64,000 nucleotides of DNA, taken from positions 53,148,093 to 53,212,092 of the forward strand of contig OX637392.1 of the NCBI GenBank assembly GCA_951799425.1, in the 5' to 3' direction. Position numbers and translations under genes: made by a program. This document shows positions 9,701-64,000 of the stretch, one piece after another; within the stretch, counting starts at the first letter, position 1; each line of letters begins with the position of its first letter. Under the pieces are notes generated by a model, which saw only the letters and a list, made by a program, of their open reading frames with translations, searched no databases and was not told the origin of the DNA. This stretch comes from Ilex aquifolium. Lineage: Eukaryota > Streptophyta > Magnoliopsida > Aquifoliales > Aquifoliaceae.

Positions 9701-12700
9701 AGACACGAGCTGTTAATTTTAGAACAATGGATCAAAAAGATTTACAGTTTGATGATAAAAACATGCCAACATCGATCTATGGCGGTGACAAGCTTGATGA
9801 TATTGAAAGCGAAACAGAAAATTATATGGATGCACTTAACACCATCGAATCAGAGTCTGAAATGGATTTTGACTGCCATACAAAGCGAGAAGTCGAGCAG
9901 TACTCCAATTTGAACAGCAAAGCAGTAGATGATGGAATAAGTAGGCTTACAGCAGAGTGTTCAGACCATCATTTATCGACTTTCGAATCTCATATTGCTG
10001 GCCCCAGTTATCCAAACAAAGATGCATCCAGGGACATCTCCAACCCCGGGTCCCCAGAATGTCATACAGCAATTCTGCCTTCCTCAAACGTTGGGAAATC
10101 TGATGATAAATCTGACTCAGTCTCTTCAGAGTATTATGTCAACCTTCCATCGCCTGAAATTGCTGGGAACTTATCGACTCCCTTCAGTTCGCCGGACATA
10201 GTGTTATGTGGAAATGCTAATATTCATGATGGTCCCAGTTCAGAATCTGTTGTCAGCAGTGCATCACCTTGTGACTCCAGAGAAACCAATATTCAGGATC
10301 AGGTAAGTGAAAAGATCATAAACAGTCCTAGTGACTCTCAAAGACCTCCTGAACCTTCTAGCATCAGCTCAGTTACGTTTTGGACAAATGGTAGCCTGCT
10401 AGGACTTGAGCCGTCAAAACCACCGGATTTCAGTTCCTTAAATACTGTCAGACACGAGTCTACGACCAATTGTAAAGATGACATAATTGGACCAATACTT
10501 CAAAGTAATGCTCTTGAGGGTGTTGGGTCTGCAGGAAAACCAGATGTATTGATCAATAGCTCCAGAATCATTGAAGAAAGTCCAAGTTCTAAATGCTCTG
10601 CACCATGCCATGATGATCAAGAACATAGTATGTCTATTAAGAGAAGAATGTGGAGGTTTTCACCAGCTGATTTAGATGTCAAACTTGAGAAATCTAGCGA
10701 CTTCAAGAAGAGTTTCAATAATTCCCAGGGCCATGGTTTGAATGAAACTAGTACAGTTACATCTGGAACTGAGAGGCCATTCGGTCCAGATGTCCAATCT
10801 ACTAATTCATATGAACAGAATGGCAAAAATACATCTAGGATGTTTGAATTCAGCAACAGCTTACTTGTAAATGGGTTTCAAAGGACACTCTCACTTGGGG
10901 CTAACTTTAACTCTGATCCTGCCTTCTCTCTGAATACTGGTGGTTTTGAGCAAGAGACCAGGCGCCGAAGTGCTTCACATCAAACTTTCTCCGGTAGGAC
11001 TAGAGAGCAGTTTGGAAGTGCATTTCCAGTCCTGTCCCCTTCTTCTTCACCACCACTTGAACATATGAAGATATCATTCCAGCCTATAGATGGCTTTGAG
11101 GCTTCCAAACTGAAATTGAAATTCCCTAATGGGAGTAACAGTTGTGACAGTAGCAAAGATATGTTTCCTTCATTTCAGTTGGTCCCAGAGCCTGCAAGCT
11201 CTCGTCATGACTTTGGTTCAGAGTCTGATGATGACACATTCTGTAGATCATCTCCTTATATGTCAGATGATTGCCTTAGCGATAACTCTGATTCAAATTC
11301 TGAGCATTGGGAATCTGGCGAATCTCCCAGTAGCAAGGACCATGAATTATATGATGCTTTCTGCAGAATCTCATCAGCAGAGTCTGCTTCAAGCTCTGTG
11401 GGGATTGGGGGAATTGCCCAGGGAAGCATCTGCGATAACTATGGATTTCAAAGTTCATATGCTGAAAATGGTGCAGAACTTTCTCACTCTGGTGGTTTTC
11501 TTGATCTTCCAAGCTTGGATACCCTGAATCGTTCAGTTATGCCAAAAGTAGAAAACAATTCTGATGGAAAAGATGTTCTAGATTTCTGCTCACCTAAGGA
11601 GCCTACGCCACTGCCTCCACCTCTCCCTCCATTGCAGTGGCGGGCTATGAAACCTCATTCAGATGTGACAGAAGATAAGCAAGATACTGTATCTGATGCC
11701 CTAGGTTATGCATTTGATCTGAACCTTCTGAGGACTACTATCTCTCAGCAACCTAAACCAGCTCCAGTTAAGCAAGATCAATTTATTGACGCTGCATATA
11801 CCCTGGATATCAAGGTACTCATGCTAGTTACTGTTTCCTTTTTTTTTGTCCGTTCAATTGATCATGACTTAAGTAGAGACTGTGACATGTAATAACTGAC
11901 TGTGTTACATGCTAGCAGCCAGACTTACAGAAGCTAAATGGACAGACAGAAGTTAAGCAGCCAGACTCGCAGAAGCTAACTTGGCAGAAAGAAGGGATGG
12001 ATGAAAAGGAAGATTTCTTGCATCAGATTAGAACAAAAGTGAGTTGCCATTAACCTTTAGACTTTGGTATATTTTCTTACTCACCTGAATTTGAGCCCAC
12101 TTTGCTGTGAGGTTGGTTAATGATCAGAAAATTTTCCAGTTTAAATACTGTGGTTTCCATATGAGTTAGTGTCTGTAATCATTTGCTTTGCCTACGACAC
12201 TATCTAATTTATCCACTCCATTTTTTTTTATCTTAGGATTTTACTCCAGAATGGGCTGTATTATTTCATTTCTTGCCCTGCAGTTTTTTCTATGTTCATT
12301 CTTATGCATTTGCTCTTCTGGAAAAAAGTAAACATGTAACAAGGTTGCACGGGCAGGAAAGTATTAGAGCTTATCTCATGTCCGTAAAATAACACCTCTC
12401 AATCCATCATATGAATCTTGTGTATGAAAAGTAGCTACGTAGTTCATAAGATCCACATTCCCAGGGGACGTGTCTTTCACTGGTAATATGTTGTTACGGC
12501 TGACTAAAATTCAGTTCAAGTCATCCGCTCTAACTAAGGAAATGACTGATCTCATATTACCTTCCACAATAAATGCTCTGCAAGAAAATAATGAAGTATG
12601 ATTCTTGCTGATCTGGGCTTCCACCTTTGTTGTTCCATTTCAGTCATTCAGTTTGAGACGCACTGTGACAGCAAAACCAACCCATACACCAGACCCCCCT

Positions 12701-15221: not shown

Positions 15222-15829
15222 CTAACAATCTTGCGTTGAATTCAAGAAGACAAAATTCAATTGAAATTCAAAATGATAAGCGGTGTGTACCGGATATAGG
15301 CTTAACACACTCAACGTAAATCTGATTAAACATGATCATAAAATAAATTGATTATAAATTATATAAATTTAAATACACGAACCCTAATTTTAGTTATCTT
15401 TTCCTTAAAGTATTGAGTATTCTCTTTCTTAATAGATCCATATCCATATAACTTCAGCATTACGATAAAACAGCATGAGCATGATGAGGTGTCAACATAA
15501 TCTTAATCTAGAAAAAGATTATCGACCAGATATTAATCAACTGAAAAGGTCTACCTATTAGCTTTATCTCTTTTATCTTTATGCTCCCACTTTCAATTTC
15601 TTTATACGCAACCTACCTGGTGTAGGACCCCACTCTTACCTAGACTTTGTAGTTTCTAGTTCTACACAACAAGATGATCATGACGTTGAGTAATCTTGTG
15701 GACAAAAAGCTCAGCATCAACTTTTCTTTCCCCACTCCCCCACCTTGTTCTAGGCGGCTCTCAATGTCAAAGGTCTTATGTATATGCACTTTTTATGATC
15801 TCTCTCTATCTCTCTCTCCATATATATAT
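15222..15829. other. Intergenic DNA between two transposons
   Basis: Apart from the TSD copy of the preceding element and the 9-bp TSD of the next (15,821-15,829), nothing recognisable is seen. 15,800-15,829 is CT- then TA-rich. Confidence 0.5.
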
Positions 15830-16129
15830 GGGTAAATTACACGGACACCCCCTAACTTTTTGATTTATTACACGGACACCCCCTGACATTTGACAAATGA
15901 CACTCGGACCCCAATGACGTTAGAAATGAAACGTTGCTAACAGAAAATGCAAAATGACAATCTTACCCTACTTTTGTTATCACAAAAAAAAATAATTGAT
16001 AATTCAGTTCAAAATCAAAATGACTATTATAGCCTTGTAAAATATCTTCGTACTGAACCAAAACACCATTCGTCACATCTAGAGAGAAGGCAAGAGAGAA
16101 CCCAAATCAGAAGAGAGAATCGATTCAAC

Positions 16130-16859: not shown

Positions 16860-19643
16860 ATGGATATGGTAACAGATGTTGCAGAAGTTACCAATGTTTT
16901 TATGGGCGATAATTTATCGAAGGTAATGATTGCTATTACAGTTGATAGGTCAGATGGTAGTGGAAAACTTGTACTTGATGGCGATGAACAGTTACAGGAA
17001 ATGTTTTCTTTGTATAAAAATTGTAAGGAGATACATGTATTTGTGAATGTTGAAGTTGGGTCTCAGGTGAGACTCCCACCTCCACCAGATGTAGGAATAG
17101 GTGAAGAGCCTAATGTTGATGACAATGAACCTAATGTTGAAAATGATGACAGAGATGCAAATAGGCATAAAGTCGATTATGTAAATGGGGATGAACATAC
17201 GGGTGGTGGTGGTGAAAATGATGACAGTGATGCAAATAGGCATGAAGTTGATGATGTGAATGATGACAATGTTTATGGTTTCAGTTCTGAGGATGATGAC
17301 TGGATAGTTGATGGTGATGATGCCCCCAATGTTAGTTATGAGTACAATGATGATATCATCAACACACAATTAGATGAAAACAGTGACGATGGGTTTTCAG
17401 ATTATCAATCAGGGGATGAAGGATATTTTAGTAGTACAGATTCTGAGGAACTCGAGGCTGAAATGGATGAAACACATAGAAGGGTTAGGAAAAGAAAGTG
17501 CAATGTCAGTGATAATTCAAGATTTGGAGTGGAATTTAATGTTCCTAAAGATGAAAACACTGATTGAGACTTTTGTGTGGGGATGTTGTTTGGAAATGTT
17601 GACTTGTTTAGAAATGCATTGAAGGATTATCTAATAAAGACAGGGATAAAAGTAATAAGGAAGAAAAATGAGAGGACTAGAGTTACCGTTGAGTGCGCTG
17701 CTGCGGGCTGCCAGTGGAGGATTCATGCATCTCCTTTACCAGATCAGCCTACTTTTAAAGTAAGGACTTACAGTAAAGATCACAATTGTGTCAGGTATAG
17801 GAAGGTGCCTGAAGCAAACTCTACTTGGATTGCTAAAAATTTTAGAAGGGAGATAAAAAATAACCCAACGATGACCCCAGAAACTTTACAATATGAGTTG
17901 CAAGATAAGTGGGAGATTGAGACCAACCCTAGTCAGTTATATAGGGCTAAAAAGAGGGCTATAGAAGAAATAGAGGGCCATCATGGAAAATCTTTTGGAT
18001 TACTACCAACATATGTTAGGGAAGTAAGGAGGAGTAACCCTGAGAGTGTTATTAAACTTGATTATTTCAAGAAATCTGTGAGTGATAACCCATTGTTCAA
18101 GGGAATCTTCATTTCTTTTGCTGCACTGAAAAATGGTTTTAGGGTAGGTTGCAGACCTTTTATTGGGGTTGATGGTTGTCACCTAAAAGGTGAATTTGGT
18201 GGAGTTTTGGTGGTTGCAGTGGCTCTTGATGGGAATAAAGGTTTGTTTCCAGTGGCATATGGAATGATTGAAAGTGAAATGACAGAAAGTTGGGGATGGT
18301 TTCTTCAAAATCTACATGGTGTCATTGAAGCAGCGGATATGACCAAATCTTGGATCTTTATCTCAGACAACCAGAAGGTATGCTTCTAACTTGTAATTTC
18401 TTAGCCATTTAGTTTCATTTTAATGTCTTTTCTGATTTGTCGTTATTGTTTCTTGTTTCTTGTTTTGGTTGGGGTGACACTCTAGGGATTAGATAAAGTG
18501 TTTGAGAAAGTGTTTCCTAGAAGTAAACATAGAAGATGTTGTAAGCATCTCTATAACAACTTTAAGCCCAAATTCCCAGGGTTACTACTTAGGATTTATT
18601 TTTGGAAGGCAGCTAGGGCTTATACTGAGATGGAGTTTAGGGAAACCATGGATAAAATGAAAGATTTGAATTGTGATGCATATGATTGGCTAATGAATAT
18701 TCATGTACTCACATGTGCTAAGCACACATTTAACCATACTGTTAAGAGAGACAACATAACCAATAATTTGTGAGTCATTTAACAACGGGGTTGGTTTACG
18801 TAGATAGAAACCAGTTCTGATACTGTTAGAGGAAATAAGGTGCAAGTTAATGGTGAGACTGCACAAAAGAAAAATGAAAGGGAGTCTTTGGGAAGGTCTT
18901 GTTACAAAGAATATTAGACAAAAACTGAACTAGGTGGTAAAGAAAAACATGTAGTGTAATGTGCTTTGGGCTGGAAACTTGGAGTTCGATATTCATCACA
19001 AGGAGACAACATACCTTGTCAATTTAACCACCAAGGAATGTGCTTGCGTAGAATGACAGATTACTAGGGTCCCCTATGTTCATGCAACAGCAACAATAAG
19101 TTCTCAACGGGAGAATATTGAGATGTTTTGTGATGTTTATTTCACAAAGAAAAAATATATGTTGGTTCATGGGGATATCATACATCTAATTACTGACCAT
19201 AAGTTGTGGGCTCCAACTAGAGAAACTCTTCATCCACCACCTCTACGCAAGTTACCTATAAGGCCTCGAAGCAATCGAAGAAGAGCTACAGATGAACCAG
19301 TAACTGACACGAGTGAAATGAGAAGGGGGCAGACAATTAGGTGCCAGATTTGCAAGCAACTAGGTCACACTAAACGAACTTGCCAAAGAACACTTGTCAA
19401 AGGAAAATGTGCAGCTCAGGTAATTTTTAATTATGTCCATAACAAATGACAATTTTGGTCCAACAATTTTTTATGTTTATGTATTTATGTATGCAGCAAA
19501 CTGTACCAACACCACAATCACAACAATGCTCTCAAGCTGGTGAATTTGGAATTTCTATATCACAAGAAGGATTGATAATCCTGTTAGGGGAATTGGGACA
19601 GACACTCAGGCCAGTGAAGGAGCAGACACTCAGGCTAGTGTAA
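16860..19643 (+). pseudogene. MuDR-family MULE transposase, disrupted
   Basis: The order is MULE-like: an acidic N-terminal region; a MuDR/FLYWCH-like zinc domain (about 17,560-17,790; CVGMLFGNVDLFRNALKDY); a MULE transposase core with the DDE Asp residues in FIGVDGCHLKGEFGG (about 18,160-18,205) and SDNQKG; a SWIM finger; and a C-terminal zinc knuckle (CQICKQLGHTKRTC, about 19,340-19,385). An intron at 18,375-18,485 (GT-AG) joins NQK to GLDKVF, and another probably follows 19,418. Lesions: an in-frame TGA at 17,565-17,567 where the family usually has Trp; loss of frame near 18,770 in the conserved ESFNN block (TGTGAGTCA is read out of frame); and a damaged SWIM finger (TGA after CACVE, and Tyr for the expected Cys before VHA). 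The protein cannot be made intact. Confidence 0.9.
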
Positions 19644-20573: not shown

Positions 20574-21574
20574 GTTTTGTGCCTATAGTTATTGCATACA
20601 ACAAAATACAAGTCATATTATGTCAATGACAGACACATCCCTTGCCTTTTTACATAACAACAGAAACACCCCTTCTGATAACACTTGCTATAACAGTGAG
20701 ACCCCATCCACATCTAACACAGACAATGCATATATATATTGTTGTTATATGTGTATATGTATATCCATTTATAACTATATACAAAAAAAATAGATGGACA
20801 TAGAGATATAGAGGTAAAGAGATATGGAGGAAGATAAAAAAATAAGAGAACCCTTACCTGCCGAATGAGAAGCTTTAGGAGAGGAAGATGGGTTTTTAAA
20901 TGAAAAGGAAAGGGTAAAATTGGCATTTCAATAATCACTTTGAAGTACAATGATTTTGTAGACTTTGACTTTCACGACATGGGGGCATTATTGGAATTAT
21001 AATAGATTTTTTGGCTGATGTCATTATATTCCGTAAGCATGTCTAACGTCTGTCAAAAATAGGGGGCTAGATGTAATGAATTTCAAATGTGAAGGGGTCC
21101 GAGTGTCATTTGTGAAATGTCAGGGGGTGTCTGTATAATAAACCAAAAAGTCAGGGGGTGTCCGTATAATTTATCCTATATATATGTATGTATGTAAAAT
21201 ATGTGAATATCTAAGGCCTACACCATCAAATTTAACCCTACTCTCAGGTAATTTTTTCTGTTGCATAGATGTACAATTATATATCAATCTATATGCATTT
21301 TCAAGGTTTCTATGTCGATATATAGAGATAGTATTAGATTGACTAAAAATAAAACTTAAAATATAAATGTTGTAATGTGGTTCAGTACGCATTTGAAATT
21401 GAACTTTGTTTGTCATATCAGCGCTGTATTATTTGATTCTAGTTTTATGTCCTAGATTTTATTCTGTGTAGCATTACCCAAAATATAACATCTTTCCCTC
21501 TCTTCTAAACATATCCATCCCCTCTCTCTCTCTCACTTTTTCCAGCTCTATTCATTGACAACCCAATGTTAATC

Positions 21575-21582: not shown

Positions 21583-21639
21583 TGTGAATCTCCAAAGTCT
21601 CTACCACCAAACCTAAACATTTTCCTCCCACTTCTAAGC

Positions 21640-21640
21640 A

Positions 21641-21695
<55 letters not shown>

Positions 21696-21696
21696 A
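21640..21696 (+). repeat. Compound (CT)n(CA)n microsatellite in Dof 5' leader
   Basis: A CT run followed directly by a CA run ends 2 bp before the ATG at 21,699. Length variation here would change the leader. Confidence 0.9.
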
Positions 21697-21698
21697 AC

Positions 21699-22172
21699 AT
21701 GGCTGATATTCAAGATGATCATGGAGCCCCAGGCATCAAGCTGTTTGGCACAACAATTGCAGTGCAAGTGAGACAAGTAAAGGATGAAACAAACGAATCT
21801 GATCAAACTAGAGAAAAGAGGCCGGACAAGATCATACCATGCCCTAGGTGCAAAAGCATGGAGACCAAATTCTGTTACTTTAACAACTACAATGTTAACC
21901 AACCAAGACACTTCTGTAAGGGCTGTCAAAGATATTGGACAGCCGGTGGTGCCCTTCGGAACGTGCCCGTAGGAGCTGGTCGCCGGAAAACTAAGCCGCC
22001 ATGTCGTGAGCTCGCTGGGTTCTCAGAGGGGTGCTTGTTTGATGCTTCTGGGGTGCAACATATTGATTTTGATGGGGTGTTAGAGGAATGGCACATGGCG
22101 GAGCATGGTGGTTTCCAAGATATTTTTCCGGCTAAGAGGCGGAGGACCACCTCAGGTGGCCAAACTTGTTGA
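21699..22172 (+). CDS. Dof zinc-finger transcription factor (DOF1.5/CDF-like)
   Basis: Single-exon, 157 residues. Dof proteins are plant-specific nuclear factors that bind AAAG sites. The one-finger Dof domain lies at about residues 46-101, with CPRC, then [19 protein letters not shown] (the C-X2-C-X21-C-X2-C zinc ligands), then [20 protein letters not shown]. The N-terminal GIKLFGTTI block resembles the conserved start of the CDF/COG1 (DOF1.5) group. The short C-terminus with [11 protein letters not shown] and a basic KRRR patch also fits the small DOF1.5 type rather than the long CDF1-5 proteins. The protein lacks an extended FKF1-binding-like tail. Light or clock regulation would be by analogy only. 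The start is the first ATG after the CT/CA leader. Confidence 0.9.
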
Positions 22173-46468: not shown

Positions 46469-48058
46469 TTATTCACAGCTCCCAGAGTCAAAGACATACA
46501 AGTCCAGTAAGGCATTATAATGTCCTTTCTCTATTTCCTCCTCCTTCACTTGATGAAGCAGCAGGGTTTCAATAATAAAATCTTCCCAATCAATTTCAAC
46601 TTGCATTTTTCTTTTCTTTTTCTTCCCAGCGTATGTGGATTCCAAATGGTCAAGTTCAAGCCCATAACACCCACCATTAGATGGACACATAACCTTCTCA
46701 ATGCGCAGCTTTGCAGCCTTGATCTTTTCTCTTCTCCTTTGATATGCTAAGCATCCACGATCAAATGAAGGTGGCGTGGCATTCAAACCTACATCTTTCT
46801 CCAAAATTTGCTTAAGAAAAAGCTTTTTGCTCAATTCTGATTTGCCTTTCCACCACTCTGTACACTCAAGGAAGTCATACCCTCTCCTCCTTTTCCTTCT
46901 ATTATCCTTACCATCTATTGTTGACTTAGCATTGGAAAACTCATTCAAGAACTTCGAATAAATCAAGGACAAGCATTCATGTGAAATCTTAAACTTCTCC
47001 ATATCATCAACACTCAATTGTGGAGAATGTTCTAACTCAAAATACTGAGAATCAATTTTTGTGCCATAGCCATCAATACGATATCCAGTTTCATTGCTCA
47101 AACAGTCACCAACCAACTCATCCAAATCAAACCCCCCATCCTCCAAAGCCTTCCTCTTATCACCACACTTAGCCATCGACTTCAACTCCATATACTGAAT
47201 CACAAATGGTGCATTCTTCACTACATTTTTAACAGTAATATCCTTCCCCCACGGCAACAATTTTGCAACTCTCACTAGCCTCTCCAAAAGCTCTTTATAC
47301 CTCAAACGACATGTAACAACTGCCACATGCAATTCCTTCGCCACGACCTCAATATTGACCTCAACTTGATTCAATTCCGCAACAAACACCAACACTGCCA
47401 CCACGACTGGCATTGGCCTTCTCCCAGTCGTCAAAAACCACTTAACCAAACAATTCATCAAAAATATCCCTTGCTTCACCATCCTTCCCGTTTTATCCTC
47501 CGAAACATCACTAAAACTCGGGCAAGTCCTAATTGCCCGTTCAAACGAATTCACAATATCAAACTCAGGCAATTTCAAATCTACAAAACTTACAACCCGA
47601 TCAATCATTCGACCTAATTCATAAATCTCACGTCCAATTACTGCCGAGATTTCTACAAGAGGTAACGTTTTATTGTCTTTCCTCATTACAACATAAGCAC
47701 AAGCACCTACAAGTATCGGAAACCAATTACCCGTCCCATACTCTCCCTCAGTAATGGTCTCTACAAGAACTTTGACCTCATTTGATTTTGGACCCGAAAT
47801 TCCTAATCTAAACATGAAATCCGCGATCAATTTTTGGGCTTCGTAGATTTTAGTCTCTTTATAATTATAGACACTGCCGGACCCTGCAGTGCCAGTGCGA
47901 ACATAAGTGCCGGCAGGGCCTGTTATGCCGCCGACATGAGCTTGGTAATTTTCGTATTCTTGAACACCCCCACACGACTCGCAGACCAAATTTCCGGTGA
48001 CTTCATCAGGGACTATAGTTCTCTCTCTGCAATATTTGCATGGGCGAGAACTCTCCAT
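46469..48058 (-). CDS. PTF2: Plant-specific TFIIB-related protein PTF2
   Basis: Intronless, 529 residues, close in length to Arabidopsis PTF2 (At4g35540), which is needed for pollen development and germination. The N-terminus has the TFIIB zinc ribbon, C7-X2-C10-X15-C26-X2-C29 (CKYC ... LVCESC). Two cyclin-like repeats follow: about residues 70-160 (AQKLIADFMFRLGISGPKSN ... GACAYVVMRKDNKTLPLVEI) and about 185-285 (MVKQGIFLMNCLVKWFLTTG, PMPVVVAVLVFVAEL). The C-terminal half is Lys/Glu-rich and plant-specific, with KRRRGYDFLECTEWWKG. It is expected to act in the nucleus with TBP at RNA polymerase promoters. The start ATG at 48,056-48,058 immediately precedes the zinc ribbon. It converges with the DUF538 gene 4.3 kb away. 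Confidence 0.88.
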   Translation of the reverse strand: MESSRPCKYCRERTIVPDEVTGNLVCESCGGVQEYENYQAHVGGITGPAGTYVRTGTAGSGSVYNYKETKIYEAQKLIADFMFRLGISGPKSNEVKVLVETITEGEYGTGNWFPILVGACAYVVMRKDNKTLPLVEISAVIGREIYELGRMIDRVVSFVDLKLPEFDIVNSFERAIRTCPSFSDVSEDKTGRMVKQGIFLMNCLVKWFLTTGRRPMPVVVAVLVFVAELNQVEVNIEVVAKELHVAVVTCRLRYKELLERLVRVAKLLPWGKDITVKNVVKNAPFVIQYMELKSMAKCGDKRKALEDGGFDLDELVGDCLSNETGYRIDGYGTKIDSQYFELEHSPQLSVDDMEKFKISHECLSLIYSKFLNEFSNAKSTIDGKDNRRKRRRGYDFLECTEWWKGKSELSKKLFLKQILEKDVGLNATPPSFDRGCLAYQRRREKIKAAKLRIEKVMCPSNGGCYGLELDHLESTYAGKKKKRKMQVEIDWEDFIIETLLLHQVKEEEIEKGHYNALLDLYVFDSGSCE

Positions 48059-49304
48059 GTTTTGAAGGAAAACTTAAGTTGGGTCTTCTGGGCTTTGTCT
48101 GATGATGTTTGAATAACGGAAAATTTCAGTGTTCAGAGACATTCCAGGAAAATTGTTGTTGGGTCAGCGAATTTTAGGGTTCGGAACAAAATTTGAACTG
48201 GGTAGTAGAGATTTTGTTTGGCCATGTTCGGATGATGAGAAAAAACAGAATTTTCCCTGAAAATTTATTGGAAAAACTCGCAGGGTCTGCGAATTTTAGG
48301 GCTTTGAACAAAATAGGAAATAGATTTTTGGGTTTTCATATGGGATTTTGTTTGGTTGATTGGAAAATTGATGCGACGATTATTTAGTAGAACTCGGGTA
48401 TATGGACACAAGAAGGTATGGAATTTCTGGTGAAAAGCGTTGCAATAGTTGAACGACAGGAAAAAATTTTGTAACTTGGTAAAGCGAGCTGGGCTTTCAG
48501 GAGACTTCGCTAGGGTTTTGATCGAGAGAGAAAGAGAGAAAGAGAGAGAGAGACAGAGAGAGATGCGAGCTGCGTTTAAAGAACAGCAGATTTTGCTGTT
48601 CCATTTAAACGGCGCCGCTTCATGCTTTACAAAATTCAAACACCCCCCGATTTGATTATTTTAATGCTAGTTCCAGCAAAAAAAGGGTTAGGGCGAATTG
48701 TAGTTTTCAATCTAAAAGATTTAAAAAAAATTATTTTATAATTTCAAAGATTAGATTTTTTATATTGTAATTTTAATGTGTTAAAAGTATTATAATATTA
48801 CCTTTTTATTAGTTTCTATTACTTATTCCATGAACATAAATGGGATGATGTTTTACCGAATAAGTAACGAAAGTCAAATGGTAATATTTTTAATATTTTG
48901 AGAGTATAATATAAAAAAATTAATTTTTTGGGTATAAAATAAAAAAATTTAATCTTTCAAGATGCAAAGACAAATTCCCCCAAAAAATTAACTTACTATA
49001 CTTAAAAATAAAACAAACCCTCTCTTTTTCTCTCTAAATAGATGTCGGTGTTTGAAAATTTATCACTCCCTCTACAAAATTGTTTTGATGAATTTTAGAT
49101 ACGAGTGACAATTATGTCACATTAATTCATGTTTTTGTTGTATTAGCTTGAACTCGTAAGTGAAAATTACTTAATTCTAATCTAAGTCTTTTTTAATTAT
49201 GTCAAATATATTAACATTGATTTGACCTGTATATTCTCATGTCATATTCGGGTTGAGATGTATAACCCGCAAATCAACAATCTAAAAACTAAGAATATTA
49301 TGCC
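48059..49304. other. PTF2 5' flank and intergenic DNA
   Basis: 48,059-48,600 is the probable promoter/leader of PTF2, with a GA run at about 48,521-48,562 (TC on the gene strand, about 460-500 bp before the ATG). The rest is AT-rich with no recognised feature. Confidence 0.5.
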
Positions 49305-49735
49305 TAGGGATGTCAGTAGACCGAAGCGGGGGCGGGGGGTATAGTATTCATCCCCGTACCCGCTTAAAAAAACTGCGTTCATCCCCGTTAACGGAGATAA
49401 TTTTCATCCTCATCCCCGTCTACGGGTAAATTTTTAATCCCCGTCCCCGTCGCCGCTTCTCCCGTACCCGCCCAAGCCCAAGCCAAAGCCAAGCCCATTA
49501 CACAATATAAATAGTGAAAATTGGAAGTGAGTCCCCCTAGATGTACTTGTTTGGAGATGAGTCCGGCAAGGAAACTTATAAGGGGCTAAGTCCATATTTA
49601 AAATTATATGTAATGACTTAAGTCCACTTTTTTTTTTTATCTCAAAAATACCCTTCTTTGAAAGGAAGTTAAATTAATTTCCTATTTTGGAAATTGTTAT
49701 CCCTTAATTCAAGGTCAATTAAAATATGCTAATAA

Positions 49736-49768
49736 AATCTCCATCATAAATTTAAAATTCAAATTCAA

Positions 49769-49865
<97 letters not shown>

Positions 49866-49917
49866 CTCCATCATAAATTTAAAATTCAAATTCAAAACTC
49901 TCTCTCTTTCTCTCTCT

Positions 49918-49950
<33 letters not shown>

Positions 49951-49959
49951 AATTCAAAA

Positions 49960-49992
<33 letters not shown>

Positions 49993-50039
49993 AAATCTCC
50001 ATCATAAATTTAAAATTCAAATTCAAAGCTCTCTCTCTT

Positions 50040-50070
<31 letters not shown>

Positions 50071-50082
50071 CAAATTCAAAAC

Positions 50083-50133
<51 letters not shown>

Positions 50134-50138
50134 CAAAT
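49736..50138. repeat. Compound tandem array of (CT)n(TA)n units
   Basis: A unit AAAATCTCCATCATAAATTT + AAAATTCAAATTCAAA + (CT)n + (TA)n occurs three times in full (starting near 49,736, 49,860 and 49,993). Shorter versions beginning ATCAAATTCAAA are interspersed. The longest TA run exceeds 50 bp. Confidence 0.9.
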
Positions 50139-50139
50139 T

Positions 50140-50564
50140 CATGTTACTATTTTTTTTATTATGTTACTGTTCATGTTACTACTTTTGTTGAGTATGTTAC
50201 TGTTCATGTTCCTATTATTTTGAGCATGTTACTGTTTTTGTTGATCATGTTACTACCATTATTTTACTAAATATTAATATTAAATGTTACTATTTGTTTT
50301 GTTTTTGAATATTACTATTTTTTGTATTTGAATGGTACTATTTTTTGCGTTTGAATTTGAGAGAAATAATTATTGTTAAGTATGTTACAATTTTTGTTGA
50401 ACATGTTACTGTTGTTATTTTTTAAAAATATTAATATTGAATGTTTCAATTTTTTTTTTTATGTTTAAATGTTACTATTTTTTTGTGTTTAAATGTATTA
50501 TTTTTTGTATCCAAATCATAACTTTTTTTTGTATTTGAATGTTACTATTTTTTATTTTTAATGT

Positions 50565-50612
<48 letters not shown>
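50140..50612. repeat. ATGTTACTRTT repeat tract and (TA)n
   Basis: The word ATGTTACT or close variants (ATGTTACTATTTTT, ATGTTACTGTT) recurs more than a dozen times between 50,140 and 50,567, followed by a TA run at 50,568-50,610. Confidence 0.85.
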
Positions 50613-53722: not shown

Positions 53723-55864
53723 TGCAGCGGTCTTTGGATGCTTCAGAGTTCAGATATCCTATGCACTGCCCAAAAGTTCAGAGTTCAGATATCTATAGAG
53801 CCATCGAAAAGCTGTTCCTTGGAGTGTGAAATAGAAAAGTGCTTCAATGCAATAATTGGAACATATAAACATTAATAACAAGCAAAAGATGAATATGCAG
53901 TGATTGTCCGCTTCAGTCCGGCTCAGTCTTTCATAAAACAATTCTCATTTTTGTGAAACTTTAATAACTATATCAATATTGTCAGAAAAGAATGCCGGTG
54001 AGCAGCAAATGAACTTATAATAGCCAAGAACATTTCATGCCAGGATTCAAGACATTGAACTTGTTTTTTTTTATCGCCATAGGGAGACATTAGATAGCCA
54101 ACTTCAATGTATTTTCCGGAAAGGCACAAGTTTTTGTTGAGAGCAAAAGCTATATGACTTTTGTCGTCATAGACTGATGCATAAAGATTTTTGATTAACC
54201 AAAAAACAAACATCAAGAGTTATTTAATGCACAATGATATCTGGCAGACTTTTATCAGGCACATCTCACTGAAAGTACAAATTAAATAATATTAAATATG
54301 GGATCTACCTTGTACCTTGGTAACATTCTAAATCTCACAAGTGAAATCTTCTGGTTGCTAGTGACCATCATTGGTCACTTCTAGTATCATCTATCCCAAT
54401 GCCTCATATTGAATGTAGTCTTTGGTCCTACAAGTAGCACTTTTCCAAACAAGAAACCAAGCTGGGAAGGTAACATGAAAACAAAGGAAAAGACACATTT
54501 TGAGGCAAACTATTTACTCACAAGGAAAACAAAGACTTGCTCATGGACACATTCAAGCCCAAGATCATGAAATGCATTCCAAAAATTAGGAGCCTTGAGC
54601 TCTAATTCATCAATATCATTTCATTTTTTGGTAAGTATTGCCTAAAATTCCTTAATGATTGCATTGACACTCAGACAAAATCGCTTGGAATTGATCCATA
54701 AGAACACACTGAGGATGCCAGCCTAATGACACTTCCATATGAAAACAATTGGCCATATTGTTTTAAAGTCTCCAGTAGAGAAAGATGTAGGGAGATTGGT
54801 AAACCTATCAGCCACATGGACCTTAAGGAATGACTTAAAATAATGCCTTACACATAAAGGAATTGCTCGGTCATGATGGGAAGGGCTATCTCTACCATCA
54901 ACCCACAGACAGGTGTTTTCGGTATCCTAGGCTCCCACCCCATCCATCAATGTATAGAAACCTTGAAAATCAAGATGCATGGCTGGCAGCAAAAAGAAGT
55001 CATGAAACACTAGATCTCCTAATGAAAGTAAATCTACTGATTTTCCTTTTCCTTCTAAAGAGCTAGCAATATATAAGAAACTATGTCCCGGTCAAAGTTT
55101 GGATCGTGCATCGCTTTTTCTAAGTGAGCCAGGAGGCATCACTTGTGCTAATAGTTGTTATGGGAATCAATATGTTGAGTATCTCTCAAACCTTCATTGT
55201 TGAAGTGCCTTCGATCCTGACATCAACAACTTAAGGTTGCAGATGATTGCAGAAAACAGATACCTGAAGATCAGCATCCATGGCTATTGGAAGCCAAAAA
55301 ATTACAGAAGAAACCTTATATCCCTGAAATTCAGGTTTAGTAATCAACGATTCCTACCATAGACGAGCCAGAGACTAGTTTTTTCCTTTTTATGTAAGTG
55401 AGACTAGGTTTGCAAGCTCCAACAGAAACTTGACCACCTAACACAGGGGTTATAGATTTTGACCTGTTGGATTAGAAGCCAGGGCATATAAAAAAATAAA
55501 AACAAGACGTAGAAGACAAGGGGCACACCATCATAACTCATGGCAATTAGATTCAATATCTACTCCATATATTGAAAATCAATATCCATTTCAGTCCTTA
55601 TTTACATGGATGAAGAAGAACACTAGAAATCTAGATGCCCATGAATAAACTTCTAAAGAATATTTCCTTAATAAGCACAAAGGAATTTCATACTCCATGT
55701 AACCAGTCCTTATTTTCAAATGTCTCTGTCGATGATCACAAAAATGCAGAGGGAGGAGATGTACTGGATGCAGCAGTCACGGATCAACTGGTTAAGGTAT
55801 GGAGACCAAAATACCAAATTTTTTCACCTGACCACGATCCAAAGAAAGCAAAGAAACTAGATAC
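53723..55864. other. Intergenic DNA, nothing recognised
   Basis: About 2.1 kb with no supportable gene. The final 200 bp or so may already be LINE 5' sequence, but no frame is recognisable before about 55,865. Confidence 0.4.
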
Positions 55865-57122
55865 TCGGACTGAAATCCACAGAAGGAGAATGGATCATGG
55901 AAGATGAAGCCCTAAACTCCCGTATTTCTGATTATTTCAATTCTCTGTTCTCAACTATTGGGGTTCAGAATTTTAATGAAGTTCTAGAAGTGATTCCTCC
56001 CTTGGTTTCTGGCGATATGAATGCAATACTACTGAGCCCTGTTTCTGAAAATGAAATTCTAAGAGCTACTAAATAGTTGGGTGACCTCAAAGCTCCAGGC
56101 CCGGACAGATTCTCTAGTATTTTTTATCAGAAACATTGGCATATCCTTAGGGCGGAAGTGTGTAAAGTCGTCCAGAAATTTTTCACAGAAGGCATGATGA
56201 TTCCGGAGTTGAACAGAACTAGCTTTAGTGCTTATCCCCAAAGAACCTACACCGGAATCACTTTCCCAATTCTGCCCCATAGCTCTATTCAACTTTCTTT
56301 ACAAGATCATTTCTAAAGTACAAGCAAACAGGTTGAAAAGTATTCCTCGACATCTGGTCACCCCCAACCAGGCTGCTTTTGTCCCTCACCGCCAGATCCA
56401 GGACAGTATCCTCATTGCAAATGAAGCTTTTCATGCCCTGAAAATTAAAATGCGCAAAGAGAAGATGATGGCAATTAAGTTAGATCTCAACAATGTGTAT
56501 GATACAGTCGAGTGGGACTTTCTGGAATCAATCTTGAAGAGGCTGGGTTTTAATGTTTCTTGGATTAACCTTCTCCTCCAGTGAGTTACTACGGTGAATT
56601 TCGAAGTGATGATCAATGGGGCTGCTACATGTGAATTCACTCCGCAAAGGGGTCTAAGACAGGGCGACCCAATCTCTTCCTCCTAGTTGCGGATGTTCTA
56701 TCTAGGCATATATACAAATATCTGCACGAGGGGCGTCTCTGGTATGCGAATTAAAAAAAGAAGCCCTACTCTATCCCATCTATATTTCGCCGACAACTCC
56801 CTTCTTTTCCAGAGGGCCAACGAATAGGAGGATTGTCACCTAAGGAGCACTTTGTCCAGATATTGCGAGGCATCAGGGAAACTCATAAATTTTCAAAAAT
56901 TGGGAGTGCTATTTTCCAAAAACACACCCTCGAATGAAAGAGTTTATCTGTGTGAAAAATTGGAAATTGAAGCCCTCCCAAGAAACAAAAAGTACATAGG
57001 TATCCCTTCCTTTTGGGGTCGTTCTAAAGTGGAGACCTTCAACTACCTAGTAGAAAGAGTTATGAGGAAGATTCAAGGGTGGAAGGAAGCGTACCTGTCC
57101 CAAGCTGGTAAGGAGGTTTGAT
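55865..57122 (+). mobile_element. L1-type LINE, RT portion (left half), degenerate
   Basis: Successive frames give the pre-RT segment (RISDYFNSLFS), the RT core (KAPGPDRFSSIFYQKHW, PNQAAFVPHRQIQDSILIAN, AIKLDLNNVYDTVEWDFL, GLRQGDPIS), then LSQAGKEV where the sequence stops at the hAT insertion. The catalytic YADD-type motif near 56,790 reads YFADNS, with Asn for the second Asp, so RT activity is lost even without the frameshifts (near 56,225 and 56,690) and stops (near 56,074, 56,582 and 56,826). Confidence 0.88.
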
Positions 57123-59372
57123 CAGGATTACTTGGATCACGGATCGCTTTGGTACGAATACGGTTGTGGGGTACGTTATTTTCTCGATACGATAGGGGTA
57201 CATTCAACCGATAAGCTAATTGGAGTCGTGGTTCGTTTGGAAATTTTAATTGGTTCGTTTATAATATTGTAAGAAATTATATATATGTATGCATCTATAC
57301 ACACATGGTGAACTAATATTTATACATGTGGCAATTTTTAATATTATTTTAATTATATGCATACACACATAATTAATTAATATCTATTTCGTTTTTATTT
57401 TAAAAGAACCAACGCGAATCAAGATCCAAGACCCATAACAACATACCATCTAATAATCGTGAATAAGAAAAATAATGGTTGAATATTTGTATTATGGGAA
57501 AAATCAAATCACAACAAATATAAATTTAAAGATCATTAAAACAAAAGAAATAAAGTACAAGATAGTAATTAAGTAGCTTCCTACTTGAACAGATAATTAA
57601 AAATCTTAAATAATTAACAGTCTTCAAAATAAAATAATTGAATAGTAAAAACATTTGAATCAAAGTACTTAATTTTCAACTCTTTTCTAAGTCTGATGTA
57701 GTCCAGTACGTTGGGGTGATGGCCTACTAGAACTAGTTGATGAGCCAGCAATAGAAGTGGGGATAGAAGCATGGGATGTCGCTTCCCAGTCTTCCTCGGT
57801 GGCATGGCAGAAAAATTAATACAGTCATCGTCCAAGGATTTCAACCACAAGTCCTCCCATTGTACAATAGAATCATCTATATGGGTATGCTTCGGATTGA
57901 TTCCCCATTTTTTAAAAATTCCATCTTTATAACTTGTAGTAAAACGTGATTAGAGATGAATATTGGAATGAATGAATACTAGCTTGTCAGCTCTTGTAGA
58001 GTTCAACCTATTTCTCTTGACATTCTGGATGAATGAATATGCACTCTAATTTCTTTCAGTTGGTGAACTTGTTATTGGTTGAAATAATATCTATTAGAAA
58101 GAAAAAAATAAAAACAAATAAATAATGGTAAATAATAGTAAAGTCAAACTTATACCTTTTTAGCAACATCTGCCAAGTTTGGAGTTTTTGAACTATATGT
58201 TGACCACCAATCAACAACATATATAGTTACAACATCTGTTTGAGCAACTGCCATAGCATAAAGGTCTTTTCAAGAATGAAAAAAGTTATATATTCTTCTC
58301 TTAATATTTTTGTTTCTTGGTCATCTTCAACTATCTTTCCAAATGCTTCCATAACACCAATGATCACCTCCTTGTCTTGATTAAGCTCTTCCTTATTGTG
58401 CCACCCGATGCTAGCTTAGCTAGATATTGAGTATCATAAAATCATGGGTTAAGTGCAAATCCAAAACCATGCATGCGAATATTCATCTTCTCCCCTCTGT
58501 CGAGCACAATTTTTTCCATCTGGGAAAACTTTTCAGTATGTTTTTCACCTTTCATAGTATCTTTAATTTCACCAAGCATATTGTCTATTCTTTCATAAAT
58601 TTTACCCATTTTTTTACCATCACCGTCACAAAATTTAATTAAAAGATACACCGGTCTTGTGATATTTTATTATATGCTCTATATATCTTTATTTTTCATA
58701 GTTTCCATAACTAGGGCACTCAACTTCCTTGTATGTTCATCTTCAGTTTTCAACCATTTTTTCCAGGTTTTCAGAAAATAATAGCTGCAAATGACTCTCT
58801 AAAGTCAATAAGTTGACTCAACAAAATATAATGTGAAACGAACCTCATTTTTGCCACATTTAATAGCTCCAATTTGGATTGACCTAAAAAACATAGCCCA
58901 AGCATGAGTATGATTAATGAAAATACTTCAAAATTATTTTCCTCTTCTATAAGTATTTATGAACCATTCAAATTCCTTTGCAAAGTCTTTGAAAATAAGG
59001 TTCAAAGTATGAACAACACAAGGACACCAAAAGATGTGTTTGTGTATATTCTCTACATCTTTATCAACAAGCTTGCAATTTACTGCGTTGTTGGTTATTA
59101 CTTGAAGAACATTGGATGATCTCACGTCTTCAATTGCTTTCAACAAAAAATCAACAATTTCTTTACCTATTTTTTCTATCCCCAAAAAATCATCGGCATA
59201 TAAGAACATAGCCCCACGACTATTTGCCGCAATGATATTAATTAGCAGTTGATGCTTGACATTCGTCCACCCATCTGACACAATAGATACCCCGTGAGAA
59301 AACCATGTATCTTTAATCGGGAACAAATCTTTTTTCACACTTCTTTTACACTAATCCAATAAAACAGTTCTT
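57123..59372 (-). pseudogene. Left-arm hAT transposase remnant
   Basis: On the minus strand: DUF659 block (DTWFSHGVSIVSDGWTNVKH, MFLYADDFLG, VLQVITNNAVNCKLV, FWCPCVVHTLNLIFKDFAKE; 58,934-59,338), a middle segment (MGKIYERIDNMLGEIKDTM, near 58,600) and the start of the hAT dimerisation region (NWWSTYSSKTPNLAD, near 58,200). The 5' third and start codon are missing and the frame is broken several times. This arm keeps the longer DUF659 frame. Confidence 0.85.
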
Positions 59373-59683
59373 GCTTTTTACACCCATCCAATAAAAAGCT
59401 TCTTTTACACCCATCTGACACAATAGATACCCCATGAGCCTTGTACTCTAAAGTCCCTATTGAATGCATCTACATTGATGAAGCGACAACCTTCATCAAC
59501 TTCAAGGCCAATTGAAGATGCATTCAAAATTATAGATAGAGATATGATTGATATGAAGGTGATGAGAGGTTTGTATGTTAATGGAATTTCATTTAATGTG
59601 TTGAGAAATTCTCAATTTCATGAGATGATTTCAACAATAAATAGAGGACCTAAAGGATACACGACTCCTTCCTATGAAAAAAC
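59373..59683. other. Loop of the hAT palindrome with patchwork duplications
   Basis: The loop contains a displaced copy of CCATCTGACACAATAGATAC (about 59,410-59,440), whose source lies in the left arm near 59,270-59,295, and a second copy of CTTCTTTTACAC (about 59,399). These short out-of-place pieces suggest template switching. The right part encodes the unique N-terminal hAT segment. Confidence 0.7.
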
Positions 59684-61450
59684 AAGAACTGTTTTATTGG
59701 ATAAGTGTAAAAGACGTGTTGAGAAATATTTGTCCTCGGTTAAAGATACATGGTTTTCTATTGTGTCAAATAGATGGATGAATGTCAAACATCAACCACT
59801 AATTAATATCATTGCTGCAAATAGTCGTGGGCTATGTTCTTATATGCTGAGGATTTTTCGGGGATAAAAAAAATAGGTAAAGCAATTGTTGATTTTTTGT
59901 TGAAAGCAATTGAAGATGTGGGATCATCCAATGTTCTTCAAGTAATAAACGACAACCCAGCAAATTGTATGCTTGCTGGTAAAGAGGTAGAAAAGGTACA
60001 CAAACACATCTTTTGATCTCAATGTGTTCATACTTTGAACCTTATTTTCAAAAACTTTGCAAAGGAATTTGAACGGTTCAAAAATACTTATAGAAAGAAA
60101 AAATCAATTGTTAAGTATTTTCATTAATCATACTCATACTTTGGCTATGTTTCGGGATCAATCCAAATTGGAGCAACTAAAAGTGGCAAAAACTAGGTTT
60201 GCCTCACATTATATTTTGTTGAAACGACTTATTAACCGTAGATAGTCACTTGCAACTACTATTTTCTGAGAACTTAGAAAGAATAGTTGAACATGCAAGG
60301 AAGTTGGGTGCCCTGGTTATGAAAACAGTGAAAAGTGAAGAGTTTTGGGATGATATGGAACATATAATAAAATATCACAAGGCCGATATATCTTTTAATT
60401 AAATTTTATGACGGTGAAGGTAAAAAATGGGTGAAATTTATGAAAGAATGGACAATATGCTTGGTGAAATTAAAGGTACTATGAGAGACAGAAAACATAC
60501 TGAAAATTTTTTCCAAATGGAAAAAGTTGTACTCGACAGATGGGAGGAAATGAATATTCGTATGCATTGTTTTGGATTTGCACTTAACCCACGATTTTAT
60601 GATACTCAATATCTAACTAAGCTAGCATCGGGTGGCACAATTAGGAAGAGCTTAATCAAGACAAAGAGGTGATCATTGGTGTTATGAAAGCATTTGGAAA
60701 GATAACTAAAGATGACCAAGAAACAAAAATATTAAGAGAAGAATATGTAACTTTTTTCATTCGCGAAAAGGCATTTATGCTATGACAATGGATGCTATTG
60801 ATTGGTGGTCAACATATGGCTCAGAAAATCCAAACTTGGCAAATGTTGATAAAAAGGTATAAGTTTGACTTTACTATTATTTACCATTGTTGTTATTTAC
60901 CATTATTTATTTGTTTTTATTTTTTCTTTCTAATAGATATTATCTCAACCAATAAAAAGTTCATCAGTTGAAAAAAATTAGAGTACATATTCATTCATCC
61001 AGAATGTAAGATAAATCGGTTGAATCTACAAGAACTGATAAGCTGGTATTCATTCATTCCAATATTCGACTCCAATCACGCTCAGTACAAGCTACAAAGA
61101 TGGACTTTTTAAAAAATGGGGAATCAGTCTAGAGCAAGCACATATAGATGATTCTATTGTACGATTAGAGGACTTGCCCTGGAGGATGATTGAATTAATT
61201 TTTCTGCCGATGGAATCGAGAAAGACTGTGAAGCGACATTTCATGCTTCTATCCCCACTTCTAGTCCAGGTCCACCTACTAGTTCTAGTAGACTACCACC
61301 CCGACGTATCGAACTACATCAAACTCAAGTTTTTAATTTTGCAAGAGGAGGGAGCACTGCAAAAGATAAAGGAAAAAAAATTGAAAATTAAGTACTTCGA
61401 TTCAAATGTTTTTACTATTCAATTATTTTATTTTGAAGACTGCTAATTGT
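59460..61450 (+). pseudogene. Right-arm hAT transposase remnant
   Basis: Begins with a segment absent from the left arm (about 59,460-59,683: GLYVNGISFNVLRNSQFHEM, TTPSYEKTRTVLL), then DUF659 (59,730-60,060), the middle region (60,427-60,670), the hAT C-terminal dimerisation block (DAIDWWSTYGSENPNLANVD near 60,790-60,855; LSQPISSSSVEKN after a probable GT-AG intron at about 60,858-60,938) and an Asp/Glu-rich tail frame to 61,446. Stops and frame changes occur throughout, so it is inactive. Confidence 0.85.
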
Positions 61451-61931
61451 TATAATTATCTGTTCAAGTAGGAAGCTACTTAATTATTATCCAGTACTTT
61501 ATTTTTTTTAATGATCTTTAAATTTATTTTTATCGTGATTAGATTTTTCTCGTAATACAAATATGCAACTAGTATTTTTCTTATTCACAATTATTAGATG
61601 ATATGTTTTTATGGGTCTTAGATCTTGATTCGCTACGGTTCTTTTAAAATAAATATGAAATATATATTAATTAATTATGTGTGTATGCATATAATTAAAA
61701 TAATATTAAAAACTGCCACATGTATGAATATTAGTTCACCATGTGTGTATAGATGCATACATATATATAATTTCTTACAATATTATAAATGAATCAAATA
61801 AAATTTCAAAACAAACCGCGACCCCAATTAGCATATCGGTGAACCTACCCCTATTGTACTGCGTACCGATAAAATAACGTACCCCTCACCTGTACCACAT
61901 ACCAAAGCGATTCGCGATCCAAATAACCCTA

Positions 61932-63395
61932 TGCTAGACCATCATGGATGTGGAGCATCCTCCTATTGGGTATGGAACTGCTAGAGAAAGGAGTTCGTTG
62001 GCGAGTCCGTAGTGGTAATGGGATCAACTTTTGGGAGGATAAATGGGTTTCCACTCTTCCAAACTACAAAATAGCCTCTATCAAGCCCAAGGACTGAGAT
62101 TAACTTGGTGGAAGACGTTATTTCTAAGGAAACAAGGGTATGGAATGTTGCTTTCATAAAGCCTTTGTTTAGGACAGAGGAATGGAAAGACATTATTAAT
62201 ATCCCAATTGCTAAACTATCTGGTTCTGACCAACTAGTTTGACACCCCAATCCCAATGGAGTATATTCTGTTAAGTCGGGCTATCCTTCAGCCAGAGAGG
62301 ATAAACACTTGAAGACAAAGAACCAAGGGTGCTCCTCCAAAAGTTTACATCCAAGACTTTGGAAGCTAATCTGTCAGCTAAAAACTATCCCGAAAGTGAC
62401 GCAATTCTGGTGGAATGTAGGCTCCAATGCCTTGGAAACCCAAGAGAATATGTTTAGGCGCAGCTGTGTGTTTTCCCCAATCTGTAGGATCTGCAACACA
62501 GAGGTTGAATCAGTGGAACATCTGATTTTTTCTTTTGGATGGACTCAGAGTGTGGTTTGGGTGTGAGTTGGTGATTAGAATGGGTCATCAGAGTGTCACC
62601 TCTATTCAGAAATGAACCTCAGATCTAGGGGATGCAATGTTAGACTACAAACAGGCTGTAGATGTTTTGAGCAAAGTTGCTTTTGTTGAGCGGACCATTT
62701 GGAAAATAAGAAATGAAGCTATCTTCCAACACCAATAACCCAACCCAATGACTGCAATCAACAGAGTCAAATTGGGTTGGGAGAATATTGTCACTCTAGA
62801 ACTCTCTAGTCCAATAGCCTACCCAAACCTGACTTGTAGGATTCCTTACCCGCCCCTCGCTAGCTCCCCCCAATTGAGAATTATATAAAATTCAACTGTG
62901 ACAGTGCCTTTAAACCAAGCATCTCTAGAGCTTCTGTGGGAGTTGTGTGCAGAGATGCCAATGGGGTTCTTCTTGATGGGGTTACTCTTTCAATTCCAGC
63001 AGTTTCGAGTCTATACTCTGAAGCAGTTGCAGTTTGTGAAGCTTGTCTCATGGCCCTATCTTTGCAACTACAGTAAGCCACAATTGAAAGCGACAGCCAG
63101 TCACTCATTCTGTTGGGCACAGGAGAAGACACTACCCCATGGGAAATTGCTGCATTCATAGAAGACATCAAGACTTTTGCTGCAACTTTAGATCTAGCTC
63201 TCAAATACGGGTCTCGAGCTACCAATATGGTAGCTCCCTAGGTGGCCAAATCTAGACTTTATCACCCTTTACCTCAGGACTAGGACTAGGTGGTTAATCC
63301 ACCACCTGAGCTTAGGGGTCTATTTTTTTTTTATTGCTATCAATCTTTTACTAGTTAAATGAAAGATTCTATCCTTTTCTGATCAAAAAAAAAAA
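61932..63395 (+). mobile_element. L1-type LINE, zf-RVT and RNase H portion (right half)
   Basis: Continues the same LINE: RPSWMWSILLLGMELLEKGV and NGINFWEDKWVS (61,935-62,070), zf-RVT (PRLWKLICQLKTIPKVTQFW, then CRICNTEVESVEHLIF; about 62,350-62,540), RNase H-like (NCDSAFKPSISRASVGVVCR, then ATIESDSQSLILLG; 62,893-63,235), a short 3' UTR and a poly-A tail at about 63,385-63,395. Stops and frameshifts are present. Between the halves, about 170 residues that normally link LSQAGKEV to the W(I/M)W block are missing. Confidence 0.88.
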
Positions 63396-64000
63396 TCCAT
63401 GAATTCTTGGTGAAAATTAAGCTGAGACTCTCAAGGTATGTTTGGATGACAGCAATCTTAATTAGGAATGGGTATCTCATTCCTCATTCCCAAGTTTCAA
63501 TTACCACAGTAATCTTGTATTTAGTGTTTGTTTATTGGTAGTAATCTAGTGTAAGAATTAATGTTATTGCCAAATTGTTTTAGGAAATAATTTGATTTTA
63601 GGAAGGAGATTGATTATAGGAGAACTTCATTTTTTAAATGAAGTTAATTTTAAGAAGCAGTGTCATTTGAGATTTTTATTTTTTTTATAGAATATCTAAT
63701 CAATGTAGGTATGAGATTACCACTATTATTGGGAATTAGATTAAGGTAGTAATCTTATTCCCGAATTAGATTACTGAATAATTGACTCTCCAAATGTGGT
63801 AATCTAGGATTTAGGAATAAGAATCTCATTCCCAATTAAGATTACCGCCAACCAAACAGGGCCTCTAAGTAAACAAGTTATTCTCCACATATGCTTCAAT
63901 CCCTTGAACCTACATCTGCTCTAGGATTTCAATTATACATATACTATGACGACTTTGTAAAGGATGTAAATAACCTTGCCTTGTTTAAACTGCGAAGGTA
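63396..64000. other. LINE 3' flank, MITE and window end
   Basis: After the LINE poly-A comes a 37-bp spacer, the MITE at 63,433-63,864, then 136 bp of unassigned AT-rich DNA. Confidence 0.5.
63433..63864. mobile_element. Foldback MITE (about 430 bp)
   Basis: The left end AAGGTATGTTTGGATGACAG and the right end in reverse complement AGGCCCTGTTTGGTTGGCGG continue into matching AATCTTAATTRGGAATG and CTCATTCC words on both sides, making TIRs of about 55 bp. No ORF; the TSD is unclear (CTC/CTA). Confidence 0.7.

Follow-up and report, generated by a model that had tools for sequence, protein, structure and literature searches.

Does a large palindrome of transposon sequence in the genome of Ilex aquifolium silence the family it derives from, or is it what insertion and deletion have left behind? 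The question is raised by a stretch of 64,000 nucleotides (hereafter the window, C2:53148093-53212092 in the genome searched, of 800 Mb and 103 contigs), in which an earlier note had seen two facing hAT arms with the architecture of a hairpin-RNA silencing locus. The answer suggested by this work is that the palindrome is probably a passive relic of two nearby and opposite hAT insertions, fused by a deletion, and that it most likely does nothing.

The palindrome at 57123-61931 is real and far beyond chance. Local alignment pairs an inverted arm at 57124-59379 (2256 bp) with another at 59677-61930 (2254 bp) over 2340 columns, of which 1927 are matches, 243 mismatches and 170 gaps (25 gap runs), which corresponds to 88.8% identity over ungapped columns and a K2P distance of 0.123. 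The longest perfect arm-arm stretch has 63 bases, and stretches of at least 21 bases number 25 and cover 710 bases. BLASTN of the window finds the same structure as a collinear pair of inverted matches, 1719 and 571 columns long (83.5% and 87.4% identical with gaps counted, E 0.0). With the low-complexity filter on, these are two of the three inverted pairs in the window at E <= 1e-10, the third being a pair of 94 bp only (15819-15912 and 21094-21186). Thus the alignment of the arms confirms the inverted repeat with coordinates within 7 bp of those first given, and the divergence first estimated by eye, one in eight to ten bases, agrees with the ungapped identity. Palindromic joins do occur in assemblies, but the chance that this is one is practically negligible, as the arms differ by 11% and by all those gap runs, the sequence contains no N, and the flanks follow each other in order within a single LINE. 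The parts of the locus, with what identifies each, are:

57123 to 59379, minus strand: left hAT copy, 5′-truncated, from the arm alignment and the matches of relatives; element 3′ end at 57123, the terminus compared with relatives
59469 to 61931, plus strand: right hAT copy, 5′-truncated, from the match starts in relatives and the terminus; element 3′ end at about 61931
59380 to 59468, no strand: junction of both copies, a filler made partly of re-copied element pieces, from matches to the left arm and relatives
58934 to 59350, minus strand: what remains of DUF659 in the left copy, 138 aa between stops (PF04937, E 3.8e-32)
59427 to 59867, plus strand: what remains of DUF659 in the right copy, 146 aa between stops (PF04937, E 4.4e-07, under the Pfam threshold)
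60716 to 60859, plus strand: what may be the first half of the right copy's hAT dimerisation region (PF05699, E 0.039, below cut-off)
56078 to 57122, plus strand: LINE part left of the palindrome, from the LINE relatives L023, L025 and L027; RVT_1 at 56213-56584 (E 9e-13)
61932 to 63000, plus strand: LINE part right of the palindrome, from matches to L022-L027; zf-RVT at 62243-62566 (E 3.6e-12); 63000 is the end of the query, not of the LINE

No stop-to-stop stretch within the palindrome exceeds 146 aa, and the right-copy frame of this length has its first codons inside the filler. Of the transposase domains first read in the arms, DUF659 is found in both, although in the right one it scores 30.1 bits against a Pfam cut-off of 34.7, whereas the dimerisation region is only marginal in the right arm.

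The genome holds at least 70 matches to the left arm and at least 72 to 59373-61931, and the best 40 of 133 and of 143 candidates, respectively, were scored. Two complete relatives with hAT-type ends were delimited: one of 3998 bp (C2:47783829-47787826) with the target duplication GTTGAGAA on both sides, and one of 4182 bp (C8:36669131-36673312) with an 8-bp duplication, TTCCAGAG / TTCTAGAG, bearing one mismatch. Two other relatives, L014 and L020, are also flanked by 8-bp target duplications. The termini of the relatives read (C/T)AGGGTTACC...GTAACCCTG, and the two marks of a hAT element, the 8-bp target duplication and terminal inverted repeats of the (C/T)AGGG type, are present together in these four (C2, C8, L014 and L020); for Ac, the available text of PMC3260210 gives an 8-bp duplication and a 5′ end of C/TAGGGATGAAA. 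The dimerisation region PF05699 is found at E 3.1e-06 in L014 and at E 1.9e-06 in L020, in the former in a second frame besides the one, open for 626 aa, that holds DUF659 (E 3.1e-43). L014 (C8:31591326-31595856) appears to have been mobile recently, since it has a near twin on C3 that is 97.2% identical.

Because the relatives carry hAT-type ends and 8-bp target duplications, both arms can be identified as hAT copies and, judged by comparison with them, are 5′-truncated with their 3′ ends outermost. The left arm begins at about base 1672 of the 3998-bp relative and base 1865 of the 4182-bp one, and the right copy at about bases 1480 and 1657, so that roughly the first 1.5-1.9 kb is absent from each. 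The terminal sequence noticed earlier at both outer ends is indeed the same, namely the 3′ end of the element, and it is the only terminus that the window copies retain, without a matching target duplication. Whilst the relatives resemble the hAT superfamily (Ac/Ds-like, with DUF659 transposases) in termini, 8-bp duplications, DUF659 and C-terminal dimerisation region, the truncated, broken and fused copies in the window are remnants, not elements.

How these remnants came together is best read from their surroundings. Both flanks of the palindrome belong to one decayed LINE, with RVT_1 on the left and zf-RVT on the right. When the genome was searched with the right flank, 17 matches and 10 loci were obtained, and six of these loci (L022-L027) were compared. 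L023, L025 and L027 span both sides, with left homology ending within 57114-57127 and right homology starting at 61932 or 61933, and they possess 324-326 bp of LINE that are missing from the window between the outer ends; L022, L024 and L026 gave no match to the left flank. The octamers at the outer ends, GGTTTGAT and TGCTAGAC, are unlike, with no matching 8-bp duplication around the whole, and in L027 the octamer TGCTAGAC is part of the ordinary LINE sequence. An element that was palindromic beforehand and inserted as a unit would have hAT 3′ termini at both ends, just as the window does, but the unlike octamers, the LINE gap and the lack of a second copy of the fused structure among the listed genome matches (those best 40 from each search) make this hardly credible.

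Instead, the 3′-terminus junctions, the unlike octamers and the LINE gap argue for two opposite insertions and a subsequent deletion. Two copies of one hAT subfamily would have entered a single LINE at sites separated by a few hundred bp, oppositely oriented so that their 5′ ends faced each other. A deletion would then have taken about 325 bp of the LINE together with the 5′ ends of both copies and their inner target duplications, and the break would have been closed with a short filler, partly copied from the element. The resulting head-to-head palindrome, with its 3′ ends outside, would later have been eroded by point changes and small indels. This order of events and this kind of repair, like the lack of function, are what we infer from the remains. 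If such reading is correct, the locus shows how a large palindrome of designed appearance can result from a deletion that follows two insertions close together.

The centre of the palindrome is smaller than it had seemed. The earlier note placed a 311-bp loop there, yet 34 of the 72 listed matches to 59373-61931 start at window position 59469 (query base 97), which means that most of the supposed loop belongs to the right copy and that only 89 bp (59380-59468) are left without a straightforward counterpart. Filler bases 59408-59438 are identical to left-arm 59268-59298 at 30 of 31 positions and to the C2 relative at all 31, and a second piece, 59376-59404, is 79-86% like the relatives over 29 bases. 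Filler of re-copied pieces is commonly left where a break has been repaired with templated insertion. A date for the fusion, sought in the one difference among 31 filler bases, was dropped, the sequence being too short.

The kinship of the arms complicates this history. They are sisters in a tree of 12 copies (support 100/99) and again in a 3′-end tree of 17 (100/97), where none of the 15 others joins their clade, and their K2P distances to five relatives (0.154-0.169) are above the arm-arm distance of 0.133 in the same comparison. In the 12-copy tree, the end branches of the arms (0.074 and 0.064) are the longest of all, compared to 0.010-0.050 in the five relatives and 0.005-0.013 in five members of the next family; in the 17-copy tree, three of the 15 other copies equal or surpass the arms in end-branch length (0.087-0.11). 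One copy, C15_211, is 87.1% identical to the left arm over 412 columns, on par with the right arm (86.5% over 577 columns). At 63 sites the arms share a base unlike that of five agreeing relatives, the outgroup siding with the relatives at 26 of these, with the arms at 16 and being undecided at 21; private changes amount to 94 in the left arm and 85 in the right, and three indels are common to both arms and absent from the other ten copies. The first impression that the palindrome is either old or built from two family members holds insofar as there are two copies on long branches, but these are mutually the closest kin among the copies sampled.

Sisterhood is what an inverted duplication of a single hAT copy, through a faulty transposition or repair event, would produce, and the three private shared indels and the absence of any other sampled copy from the clade are in keeping with it. 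Two separate insertions would require a local hop to yield the same kinship, which counts somewhat against them. However, the outer 3′ termini abut LINE positions about 325 bp apart and the arms carry no LINE sequence, while a simple foldback would presumably copy the flank too. Sister arms seem compatible with both histories, the flanks favour the local hop, and an inverted duplication is in our opinion unlikely. The history of the arms need not be uniform in either case, which is a further reservation about the two-insertion reading: sister support falls to 82/81 in the inner third, and shared and private changes are unevenly distributed along the arms (p 2e-06), so past recombination or conversion is possible. 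Arm-arm similarity, like the sister support, is uneven along 57123-61931 and may record such gene conversion or recombination.

Two other candidate signals in the changes of the arms were considered and set aside. One was a strand bias of private changes, with plus-strand G>A at 58 against C>T at 31 (unweighted p 0.0055; site-weighted p 0.085 for the left arm and 0.095 for the right). The other was a sign of past methylation, in form of an excess of C-to-T at CG/CHG, with 23/102 against 52/462 in the left arm (p 0.006) and 18/101 against 54/463 in the right (p 0.10).

Close inverted pairs of this family are found elsewhere in the genome. On C13 two 1227-bp non-autonomous relatives lie inverted, 1281 bp apart and 99.8% identical; this pair (L050, C13:25681500-25689000) has its copies at 25683378-25684604 and 25685886-25687112. 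Their target duplications are separate, ATTCACAT being exact and GGCTTGAC having one extra base on one side, and since each copy has its own, nearby opposite insertions do happen. Inverted pairs are also present on C6 (93.6%) and C5 (92.3%, with 572 gap columns), both identities being over ungapped columns. Among the three, own target duplications are shown for the C13 pair; in the C6 pair the inner octamers differ, and the outer 5′ ends were looked for and not found. The spacers of the three pairs match neither each other nor window 54001-64000. Random placement of 125-143 copies would lead one to expect 0.015-0.019 inverted pairs within 1.5 kb, which the observed pairs exceed, so the copies cluster. 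All three are tail to tail, whereas the window pair is head to head, and this may be held against the two-insertion reading. As for a precedent, the accessible part of PMC8225341 reports that Ac moves often to closely linked sites and describes one allele with two ends 331 bp apart. The nearby Ac/Ds pairs of maize that undergo alternative transposition have adjacent copies as the window locus does, but their ends are active and rearranging, whilst those in the window are fused and decayed (PMC8225341, same part). With close inverted pairs at no fewer than four places (the window, C13, C6 and C5), raw material for hairpins arises repeatedly, and the young C13 pair, with its 99.8% identical arms, is a better candidate for hairpin small RNA than the window locus.

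Could the fused relic nevertheless work as a silencer, in the manner of Mu killer, with a read-through foldback RNA giving small RNAs that silence related hAT elements in trans? The long duplex envisaged by the earlier note is borne out by prediction, as both strands are predicted to pair the arms nearly end to end, with 1986 in-register arm-arm pairs (-2824 kcal/mol) on the plus strand and 2014 (-2919 kcal/mol) on the minus strand. Such folding, of about 2000 pairs on either strand, would be expected for any inverted repeat of this size. Of 2237 distinct 21-mers in the left arm and 2443 in the right, 228 are common to both, which is likewise in favour of a hairpin. Mismatches need not be an obstacle: the available text of PMC9263138 describes mismatched hairpin transgenes that function and resist self-methylation, and that of PMC7649420 presents long inverted repeats as probable small-RNA precursors in rice. 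The rice loci resemble ours in having two kb-scale arms and a short centre, but are linked to small-RNA levels by genetics (PMC7649420, same text), whereas the window locus is known from sequence alone.

Against a silencer, few exact 21-mers match the relatives: each of the five closest copies shares 31-150 with the left arm and 58-107 with the right, the corresponding numbers being 0-3 and 4-26 for each of five members sampled from the younger family, and 3-6 and 6-20 for the three pair loci. Since both copies lack the 5′ part, the element has presumably lost its own promoter, and the flanks are a dead LINE; among the frames scanned, the nearest with a Pfam match that is not a transposon, a TFIIB/BRF-like frame, lies at 46472-48073 on the minus strand. 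Moreover, a pair of relatives at K2P 0.028, shorter branches and the 99.8% identical C13 pair point to later movement in the family, though whether this came after the fusion would depend on the age of the latter, so that it argues against a silencer only weakly.

The comparison with Mu killer itself goes only part of the way. As far as the accessible part of PMC3440606 goes, Mu killer has its TIRA (transposase-adjacent) ends outside, the flanking gene amy4 provides read-through, and short antisense transcripts are proposed as a new model. The two loci are thus alike in having the same element end on both outsides and truncated, inverted transposase halves in between, and in both a foldback RNA is conceivable (PMC3440606, same part). 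They differ in that Mu killer is a Mutator derivative, not a hAT, and silences MuDR genetically, nothing of the kind being known for the window locus, and in that the outer ends here are 3′ ends within a dead LINE in place of TIRA (PMC3440606, as above). A literature search, mostly outside subscription journals, found no plant hAT hairpin silencer. Mu killer-like silencing is not favoured for the window locus, and we regard it as very unlikely. Slimmer still is the chance of a more specific variant, a candidate mismatch-rich hAT hairpin in which divergence would evade self-methylation, read-through would supply the transcript and the closest relatives would be silenced in trans. If the locus did act as a silencer, it would represent a natural counterpart of Mu killer among hAT elements. 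On the preferred reading of a passive relic, any small RNA from the palindrome would be ordinary transposon-silencing RNA.

Elsewhere in the window, short direct repeats and self-complementary ones are clustered at 49732-50610, among them perfect self-inverted matches of 42-54 bases. A unit of about 220 bp stands twice side by side at 9308-9739, its copies 94% identical, within a 954-aa open stretch (9028-11889, plus strand) that has no Pfam match. A frame with a Dof domain, as suits plant DNA, is found at 21588-22169, and a MULE transposase fragment at 17568-18386.
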